Origin: Picrophilus oshimae DSM 9789
GTDB taxonomy: Archaea > Thermoplasmatota > Thermoplasmata > Thermoplasmatales > Thermoplasmataceae
DNA length: 64,000 nt
Assembly: GCF_900176435.1 (NCBI RefSeq)
Contig: NZ_FWYE01000001.1
Span: 496,001 to 560,000 of the forward strand
Reading direction: 5' to 3'
Both the position numbers and the translations under genes were made by a program. Positions 32,256-33,893 of the stretch are shown here, piece by piece (position 1 is the stretch's first letter; every line of letters begins with the position of its first letter). Under the pieces are notes generated by a model that saw nothing but the letters and a program-made list of their open reading frames with translations, was not told the DNA's origin and searched no databases.

Positions 32256-32264
32256 TTTTATATA
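32256..32264 (+). promoter_or_regulatory. TATA box of hsp20
   Basis: TTTTATATA, predicted to set the transcription start at about 32284-32290, inside the palindrome at 32283-32305. Unlike leaderless genes here, this leaves a leader of about 30 bases with a strong ribosome-binding site. Confidence 0.6.
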
Positions 32265-32282
32265 CTTAATTATGATTAAGTA

Positions 32283-32305
32283 GTTGTCAACCAATGGTTG
32301 ATAAC
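32283..32305. promoter_or_regulatory. palindromic operator at the hsp20 transcription start
   Basis: GTTGTCAAC, CAATG, GTTGATAAC: nine-base arms that are complementary except for one position (G against T, a wobble in RNA), with a five-base spacer. It begins about 20 bases after the TATA box, covering the predicted transcription start. The form resembles operators of archaeal heat-shock repressors. The next gene downstream encodes a winged-helix regulator that is a good candidate ligand. Confidence 0.6.
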
Positions 32306-32306
32306 T

Positions 32307-32314
32307 GGAGGTGA
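32307..32314 (+). promoter_or_regulatory. strong ribosome-binding site of hsp20
   Basis: GGAGGTGA is complementary over eight bases to the 16S 3' end (TCACCTCC) and ends five bases before ATG 32320. It decides the start in favour of 32320 rather than the GTG at 32311. Confidence 0.8.
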
Positions 32315-32319
32315 GATGT

Positions 32320-32856
32320 ATGGTTACAAGAAGGGATGAGGATGACTGGGATGAGATATTCAGAGAACTCTATGAGGAGTTCGGCCTTGACATGAGAAGG
32401 ATCAACAATGAGATTGCAAGGTTCTGGGAATCCGTGATGAAGGATCCTGACAAGATAAAGATCTCAGGGCCATATGTATACGGCTTCTCATACAAGATAG
32501 GGCCGGATGGGAAGCCAGTATTCCAGGAGTTTGGCAACGTGCCCGGGAGGAGATCACTCTACGAGGAGCGCGAGGGTTACAGGGAACCATTAACCGATAT
32601 AAATGAGGATAAAAACAACATCTACGTCACATTTGAGCTGCCCGGTGTCAACAAGGAGGATATATCATTAACCGTAAGCGATAACAACATGACGCTATCA
32701 GTTGACAAGGGTGCAAGGAAATACTATAAGAATGTAAACTTTGACAGCGAGGTTGATTCAAACAAGGTCACTGCCAAATTTACAAATGGCATCCTTGATG
32801 TTACGGTTCAGAAGAAGAAATCAGAGGGAACTGGCAGATCAGTTAAAATAGATTAA
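32320..32856 (+). CDS. small heat-shock protein Hsp20
   Basis: Holdase chaperone, about 178 residues from ATG 32320. An N-terminal charged helical region with WDEIFRELYEEFGLDMRR is followed by an alpha-crystallin domain (about 88-165: IYVTFELPGVNKEDISLTV, AKFTNGILDVTV) and a C-terminal SVKID that contains the I/V-x-I oligomer contact. It is preceded by a palindromic operator and followed after 15 bases by a winged-helix regulator. Confidence 0.95.
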   Translation: MVTRRDEDDWDEIFRELYEEFGLDMRRINNEIARFWESVMKDPDKIKISGPYVYGFSYKIGPDGKPVFQEFGNVPGRRSLYEEREGYREPLTDINEDKNNIYVTFELPGVNKEDISLTVSDNNMTLSVDKGARKYYKNVNFDSEVDSNKVTAKFTNGILDVTVQKKKSEGTGRSVKID

Positions 32857-32871
32857 ATTTTTTTGATTTTT

Positions 32872-33447
32872 ATGTACGATGACTGGGACTTTTTATCAAT
32901 TTTTTCAAATAAAACAAGAAGGGATATATTAAAATCTCTCTGTGATGCGAGCTCCTATGCGTTAAACATAAGCAGGCAGATGCGTATATCATCGCAGGCG
33001 GTGAATAAGCAGATTGATATACTAGAATCAATGGGAATAATATCACCGGTTAACATGCAATCAAGAATAGGCCCTGCAAGAAAGGTCTATGAACCAGGCG
33101 GATTCTCAACAATAATAATAGATTACTCCAGAAGCTTCATGGGAATAAAAAGAATGGAACTAACCGAAATAGCAGGTGACAAAAAAACTGTTGATGAAAT
33201 GCTCTCTGAGCTTAAAAGCGTAAACAATGAAATAAATGAAATGGATAAAAAAAGGGCGGCCCTTGTCTCTGTAAAGGACAGCATTATAAAGTCATTAAAG
33301 GAAAAATCATCGATGATGGGTGAGTTTCACAGAAACATTATAAATACATACATCGAAACAATGGATGCAAAAGTAACGGCATCATATTACGGCCTGCCAG
33401 AGGCCATGGTACGTAAACTAATAAACGAATTCAAAAACATTGGATAA
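32872..33447 (+). CDS. winged-helix regulator, probable heat-shock repressor
   Basis: 191 residues from ATG 32872. An ArsR-like winged helix (DWDFLSIFSNKTRRDILKSL, ALNISRQMRISSQAVNKQIDIL) is followed by a long helical coiled coil (about 95-145). This is the layout of archaeal HTH repressors such as Phr. Its location directly behind hsp20, whose promoter carries a palindrome, suggests autoregulated control of the pair. The TTG at 32863 is in frame but less likely as start. Confidence 0.85.
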   Translation: MYDDWDFLSIFSNKTRRDILKSLCDASSYALNISRQMRISSQAVNKQIDILESMGIISPVNMQSRIGPARKVYEPGGFSTIIIDYSRSFMGIKRMELTEIAGDKKTVDEMLSELKSVNNEINEMDKKRAALVSVKDSIIKSLKEKSSMMGEFHRNIINTYIETMDAKVTASYYGLPEAMVRKLINEFKNIG

Positions 33448-33476: not shown

Positions 33477-33893
33477 ATGAAGGTATCATTTAAATTTGAT
33501 CCTGATACCGGCTTTATCAGTGATGATGAGAAAAGTCCTGTTAGCATAAAGAATTCAATAATTAATAATGATTCGCATCATTCACCAACAGAGCTGTTAA
33601 TGCTTGCCATGGGTTCATGCACAAGCGATGACGTTTTAAATATATTAAAAAAGATGAGGCAAAACGTCAAAAATTACAGATGCGAGATCGAGGGTGAAAA
33701 AAGGGACGAGCATCCAAGAATACTAAGATACGCTGTAATACATTATATATTTGAGGGTGACATCGATCCTGAAAGCGCAAGAAAGGCAATAGAACTATCT
33801 CTGGAAAAGTACTGCTCTGTATCAATAATGGCAAAGCGCGGCGGCGTTGATGTTTCATACTATTACACGATAAATAATATTGATTATCACTGA
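33477..33893 (+). CDS. OsmC family protein
   Basis: 138 residues with the OsmC fold signature SPTELLMLAMGSCTSDDVLNILKKM and a second Cys in LSLEKYCSVSIM. OsmC/Ohr proteins reduce organic hydroperoxides with two cysteines on adjacent strands; both cysteines are here. It follows the probable heat-shock repressor by 29 bases. It overlaps the end of the convergent threonine synthase gene by 7 bases. Confidence 0.87.
   Translation: MKVSFKFDPDTGFISDDEKSPVSIKNSIINNDSHHSPTELLMLAMGSCTSDDVLNILKKMRQNVKNYRCEIEGEKRDEHPRILRYAVIHYIFEGDIDPESARKAIELSLEKYCSVSIMAKRGGVDVSYYYTINNIDYH

Follow-up and report, generated by a model that had tools for sequence, protein, structure and literature searches.

The window, a 64,000-nucleotide stretch of the genome of Picrophilus oshimae DSM 9789, carries a gene for a small heat shock protein directly followed by a gene for an ArsR-type regulator, both on the forward strand. 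The hsp20 gene (32320-32856, ATG at 32320) encodes a protein of 178 residues, which scores 167.6 bits against a cut-off of 140 on the archaeal Hsp20 equivalog model of NCBIfam (NF041800) and also matches Pfam HSP20. The regulator gene (32872-33447) encodes a Phr/SurR-like protein of 191 residues, assigned as a probable repressor from Pfam HTH_5, its predicted fold and its conservation in the family. The two genes are separated by 15 bases (32857-32871), which are T-rich and contain no evident Shine-Dalgarno sequence before the regulator ATG. This T-rich stretch could weaken or separate the expression of the regulator, so that co-transcription with hsp20 is not certain in the window genome. An osmC-like gene (33477-33893, forward strand; Pfam OsmC) starts 29 bp 3' of the regulator, as a possible third gene of the operon.

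The hsp20 promoter has three elements, all upstream of the ATG. The TATA box TTTATATA (32257-32264, forward strand), assigned from the sequence, is followed by the operator GTTGTCAACCAATGGTTGATAAC (32283-32305, no strand assigned), which begins 26 bp after the TATA box start and exactly matches GTTn3AAC-n5-GTTn3AAC. The operator is palindromic: two 11-bp arms flank a single central base, and 10 of the 11 arm pairs are complementary. The Shine-Dalgarno sequence GGAGGTG (32307-32313, forward strand), likewise assigned from the sequence, lies directly 3' of the operator, outside the palindrome. Archaeal transcription usually starts ~24-27 bp after the TATA centre, so the hsp20 transcription start predicted from the TATA box lies within the left operator arm, consistent with the overlap of palindrome and start described in the original prediction.

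The same prediction had left the operator sequence unrecognised, a view that does not hold. Judged from its letters, the operator contains, twice, the published half-site of SurR from Thermococcales: the SurR motif is described as GTTn3AACn5GTT (PMC12162507), which is contained in GTTn3AAC-n5-GTTn3AAC and makes the operator recognisable. The site of HSR1 is described as CTAAC-N5-GTTAG (PMC9133787). The AAC-N5-GTT core and its spacing are common to this site and the operator, and the common part is limited to the core AACn5GTT.

Both the gene pair and the operator are conserved throughout the family. The regulator is present in 74 of the 77 family genomes, from each of which one locus was taken; the three genomes without it are 70-86% complete. 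In all 72 loci with enough contig, hsp20 lies directly 5' of the regulator, at a distance of -4 to 53 bp, whereas the other two loci start at a contig end. Promoters were readable at 70 of the 74 loci, since no sequence precedes the regulator in L054 and L077, L029 offers 32 bp of upstream sequence and L078 is cut by a contig end. Every readable promoter contains the operator with at most two mismatches (41 perfect, 22 with one and 7 with two), and the counts stayed the same when the best site per promoter was rechosen with weight on the palindrome and the core. Thus, none of the orthologous hsp20 genes with a readable promoter lacks the palindrome, an absence that had been named as evidence against the switch. 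The operator begins 27-41 bp before the hsp20 start codon and stands out as a high-information island beside variable DNA. In 51 of the 70 promoters, the best TATA-like 8-mer begins 25 bp upstream of the operator, and in 7 more it begins 26 bp upstream, whereas the other 12 distances (3 at 23-24 bp and 9 at 10-15 bp) probably include some false picks. Among the 45 distinct family sites, the core AAC and GTT are unchanged throughout, whereas pair 5-19 is A-T in 22, T-A in 22 and G-C in 1, a swap by which both arms vary together. In addition, a homologue of osmC lies 3' of the regulator in 15 family loci (L006-L020; genera g1, g2 and g5) and was not detected in the remaining loci of the 74 examined, which hints at a possible link between heat and peroxide stress in these three genera.

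These sites also bear on the idea that the palindrome works at the RNA level, where it would be a 5' hairpin or an RNA thermometer for hsp20. When the RNA of 32283-32350 is folded, the palindrome forms a hairpin (-13.7 kcal/mol at 37 °C); however, this fold is weak against shuffled sequences, of which 9 of 200 fold as well (z -1.71), and the reading was set aside for this reason. Moreover, the Shine-Dalgarno sequence is outside the stem, the expected transcription start would cut the left arm, operator pair 1-23 is G-G in 16 of the 45 distinct sites, and the same motif is found before regulator genes elsewhere. A function in RNA is therefore extremely unlikely, and we read the palindrome as a DNA operator.

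Within the 1,534,155-base window genome, the 12-letter generic pattern of the operator occurs without mismatch at a single place, the one before hsp20. Four more sites with one mismatch (L002-L005) were found, about as many as with the reversed control pattern, so they look like chance matches, and a wider regulon built on them was rejected. Three of them (L002, L003 and L005) are located within longer open frames, and L004 is flanked by two divergent frames without resemblance to chaperone genes. The genome search that had been suggested for other chaperone genes gave no operator with at most two mismatches before VAT (L253), the thermosome genes (L254, L255), the second hsp20 (L256) or DnaK (L258, L259). 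At the thermosome locus L255, two such sites are present, one in the gene and the other on its 3' side, as judged by strand. In the window genome, the circuit seems confined to the hsp20-repressor operon.

The regulator itself scores 23.9 bits on Pfam HTH_5/ArsR (cut-off 22), indicating an ArsR-type helix-turn-helix. Its AlphaFold2 model, built from 25 homologues, has a mean pLDDT of 88.2 and contains a 40-residue helix at residues 107-146 (33190-33309, forward strand; block pLDDT mostly 96-97), a coiled coil that probably serves as a dimer arm. The earlier reading of this gene as an ArsR-like winged-helix protein with a coiled coil is thus well supported. The probable recognition helix comprises residues 41-53 (32992-33030, forward strand), which form a helix in the model, and residues S40, Q42, A43 and K46 are invariant in the 25 aligned homologues. 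At the C-terminus, residues 151-188 are modelled as three short helices with no clear wing, compared to the second, C-terminal winged helix of SurR.

Structural similarity search of the model revealed Phr (PDB 2p4w) as the top match, with a Foldseek E of 1e-7, and a Z of 13.6 and an RMSD of 4.1 over 149 residues. SurR was ranked third by Foldseek and was absent among the best 50 VIA-align rows. A sequence search of the PDB gave SurR (2quf, E 4.1e-8) and Phr (2p4w, E 6.9e-5) as relatives. On the NCBIfam models, the regulator scores 49.2 bits for SurR (NF047699, cut-off 250) and 30.8 bits for Phr (NF053602, cut-off 320), far short of either cut-off. All 25 aligned regulators match both models at an E of 0.001 or better, and for ten regulators from outside the family the profile score was higher for Phr in seven, higher for SurR in two and level in one. 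The CxxC motif of SurR was found in none of the 74 family homologues and none of the 60 regulators outside the family, by which membership of SurR was ruled out. The regulator falls within the wider Phr/SurR group but is neither Phr nor SurR in the strict sense. The cysteine-rich metal site of ArsR/SmtB metalloregulators is likewise lacking: 56 of the 74 family homologues have no cysteine and the other 18 have one. A single Cys24 near the position of the SurR CxxC is found in both genomes of the window genus (L006, L007), and in L029 and L042 of another genus.

These features were weighed against the idea that the signal is redox or peroxide instead of heat, sensed by a SurR-like thiol switch over hsp20 and osmC. 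It would agree with an operator that follows the published SurR code (PMC12162507), with the higher score of the window protein on the SurR profile than on the Phr profile, with the osmC genes behind the regulator in 15 family loci, and with the Cys24 of the window genus. However, besides the general loss of CxxC, Cys24 is missing in two of the three osmC genera and present in a genus without osmC (L029 and L042), and in other orders the regulator is accompanied by chaperone genes and a protease gene. Altogether, we consider such a switch improbable. The loss of CxxC argues against redox switching as in SurR, and would leave the sensing of heat to protein stability or Hsp20 titration.

Beyond the family, a profile search revealed relatives of the regulator in 167 of 250 genomes of the class Thermoplasmata, 36 in the family and 131 outside. 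Sixty loci outside the family were chosen from the matches listed, and a gene was counted as near the regulator if it lay anywhere within the fetched 2.2-4.2 kb. In 56 of them, hsp20, cdc48, grpE-dnaK or htpX is near the regulator, with overlapping counts of 32, 29, 8 and 2, respectively, checked by Pfam; no chaperone gene was found near it in L152, L169, L175 and L183, two of which are on short stretches. All 16 loci of the same order (L129-L144) keep the order of hsp20 then regulator, and the regulator is often the first gene in the other orders. The operator pattern with at most one mismatch occurs at 36 places in the 233,840 bases of these 60 loci, 33 of which are near relevant gene starts, compared to 0-3 places for each of eight control patterns in the same bases. 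Counted by locus, 31 of the 60 have such a site near a relevant start and 29 do not. In regulator-first loci, the site usually lies before the regulator, as predicted by autoregulation, and in several of them another site precedes the chaperone gene that follows.

In some lineages of the class, members of the regulator family are found together with grpE and dnaK, at eight of these loci (L157, L160, L188, L165, L170, L173, L174 and L178). The archaeal grpE-dnaK chaperone set is thought to have been acquired from bacteria, so at these loci an archaeal repressor may control chaperones of bacterial origin. In L176 and L177, which belong to one family of the class, a gene for an M48 (HtpX-like) protease follows the regulator, and a weak operator match with two mismatches precedes the regulator.

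We also considered whether the regulator acts as an activator, or whether another protein binds the operator. SurR is described as both activating and repressing (PMC12162507), a precedent for activation, and the window genome contains a second, weakly related ArsR-like gene (L189, G000:C3:142741-143061), whose product scores 45.7 bits on the Phr profile, above the hsp20 regulator, and has cysteines in its C-terminal half. Against activation, the operator lies downstream of the TATA box, where SurR is described to repress (PMC12162507). Against another binder, the operator travels with the regulator family to other gene neighbourhoods, and the L189 locus has no site with at most three mismatches and adjoins SufC/SufB-like genes. 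Both possibilities are very improbable. If the genes adjoining L189 are SufC and SufB, as we presume, its product is perhaps a SUF regulator.

We therefore favour, with a probability of about 80%, an autoregulated hsp20-repressor operon of the Phr/HSR1 kind, in which the transcription start is blocked and heat releases the block. The operator, the gene pair, the fold, their conservation and the single perfect site in the genome are observed, from which we infer, by analogy with known systems, the binding of the regulator to the operator, repression, the heat signal and the feedback. A regulator dimer would occupy the operator (23 bp, 32283-32305), with one GTTnnnAAC half recognised by each subunit. 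As the site is just downstream of the TATA box and over the expected transcription start, the bound regulator would block RNA polymerase and keep both hsp20 and its own gene low; this rule for the position of the site follows that described for SurR, which represses downstream of TATA (PMC12162507). Upon heat shock, the repressor might be released either by loosening of the protein itself or by unfolded proteins that draw Hsp20 off the repressor. Hsp20 synthesis would follow, and repressor newly translated from the shared transcript would reclose the promoter. Heat is the proposed signal because of the Phr/HSR1 precedent and the chaperone neighbours. Of the self-contained heat-shock switch in the original prediction, the gene order, the operator position and the fold agree with this picture, whereas the operator code turned out to be a known one.

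HSR1 of Archaeoglobus fulgidus, which we take to be AF1298, reportedly goes back to Rohlin et al. 2005. It is described as a heat-shock regulator in one operon with hsp20, for which repression by promoter blocking was proposed (PMC9133787). Compared by description, HSR1 and the regulator here share the operon with hsp20, a palindromic site and the AAC-N5-GTT core, but hsp20 is downstream of the regulator in the HSR1 operon and comes first in Picrophilus, and the outer arms GTTn3 and n3AAC of the operator are unlike those of HSR1. Phr of Pyrococcus furiosus, the best fold match, is described to repress hsp20 by way of a site that overlaps the transcription start (PMC9133787), as would be the case here with the start placed by the TATA box. 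However, the described elements of the Phr site are TTTA, TGGTAA and AAAA (PMC9133787), in contrast to GTTn3AAC-n5-GTTn3AAC, and its regulon is given as ten and more genes (PMC10746257), compared to one perfect site in the Picrophilus genome. Phr and HSR1 are both described to control hsp20 and an AAA ATPase (PMC10653856, PMC5852551), and the same link is seen here with hsp20 in 72 of 72 family loci and cdc48 in 29 of 60 outside loci. SurR of Pyrococcus furiosus (PF0095) resembles the regulator in the operator code GTTn3AACn5GTT and in sequence (2quf), but the regulator lacks CxxC, adjoins hsp20 instead of the hydrogenase or sulfur genes of SurR, and is shorter, with 191 residues against SurR domains that run to 219 in the available description. 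Phr and HSR1 are assigned to arCOG01684, which is said to be ancestral and present in most euryarchaea (PMC5852551), so a member in Thermoplasmata is to be expected.

Heat-shock repressors of the Phr/HSR1 type are thus already known from other archaea; new here are the operator, its conservation, and the spread of the regulator to cdc48, dnaK and htpX loci. In a search of mainly openly accessible literature, no description was found of an hsp20-regulator circuit in Thermoplasmatales, of its operator or one-site regulon, or of the cdc48, dnaK and htpX neighbours. To our knowledge, Thermoplasmatales have no histones. It has been proposed that histone-lacking thermophilic archaea handle heat shock by DNA compaction and not by such factors (PMC10653856); the class-wide circuit described below would, if real, provide histone-less lineages with a dedicated heat-shock transcription factor, against that proposal. 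Phr and HSR1 are the only archaeal regulators of heat-shock transcription for which a characterisation is described (PMC9133787, PMC5852551); the operator and regulator of Thermoplasmatales would add a third, directly testable system. The shared sequence suggests that one ancestral half-site underlies the variants read by SurR, HSR1 and the Thermoplasmata family, with the DNA code retained and the signal changed. For the class as a whole, we give even odds to one old circuit. In it, a relative of SurR without the redox switch would use the sulfur code of SurR, GTTn3AACn5GTTn3AAC, for chaperone control, and the repressor would itself be the thermometer. Its targets would have been exchanged over time, with cdc48, grpE-dnaK and htpX in other orders and a narrowing to a single hsp20-repressor operon in the family of Picrophilus.

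A stricter-pattern scan of the family gave matches in 70 of the 77 genomes, mostly at one place per genome among the matches listed. Extra operator-like sites in the relatives were followed up in 17 stretches. In L088, the site is that of an hsp20 promoter, in a genome with a broken regulator contig. L087 ends just past a site, L086 is a locus without hsp20 or regulator, and in L098 and L099 nothing matched when a stricter pattern was applied to the stretches. The other 12 stretches (L083-L085 and L089-L097) have repeated DNA in common, and we take them for mobile elements; one of their long ORFs, that of L084, was compared with Pfam and matched no family. In several relatives, a repeated transposon-like element of ~1.27 kb (L083, L084, L085, L091, L096 and similar) bears the near-operator ATTGTCAACTTCCGGTTGATAA at one end, adjoining the stop of its long ORF, which might be either a chance match or a captured operator.
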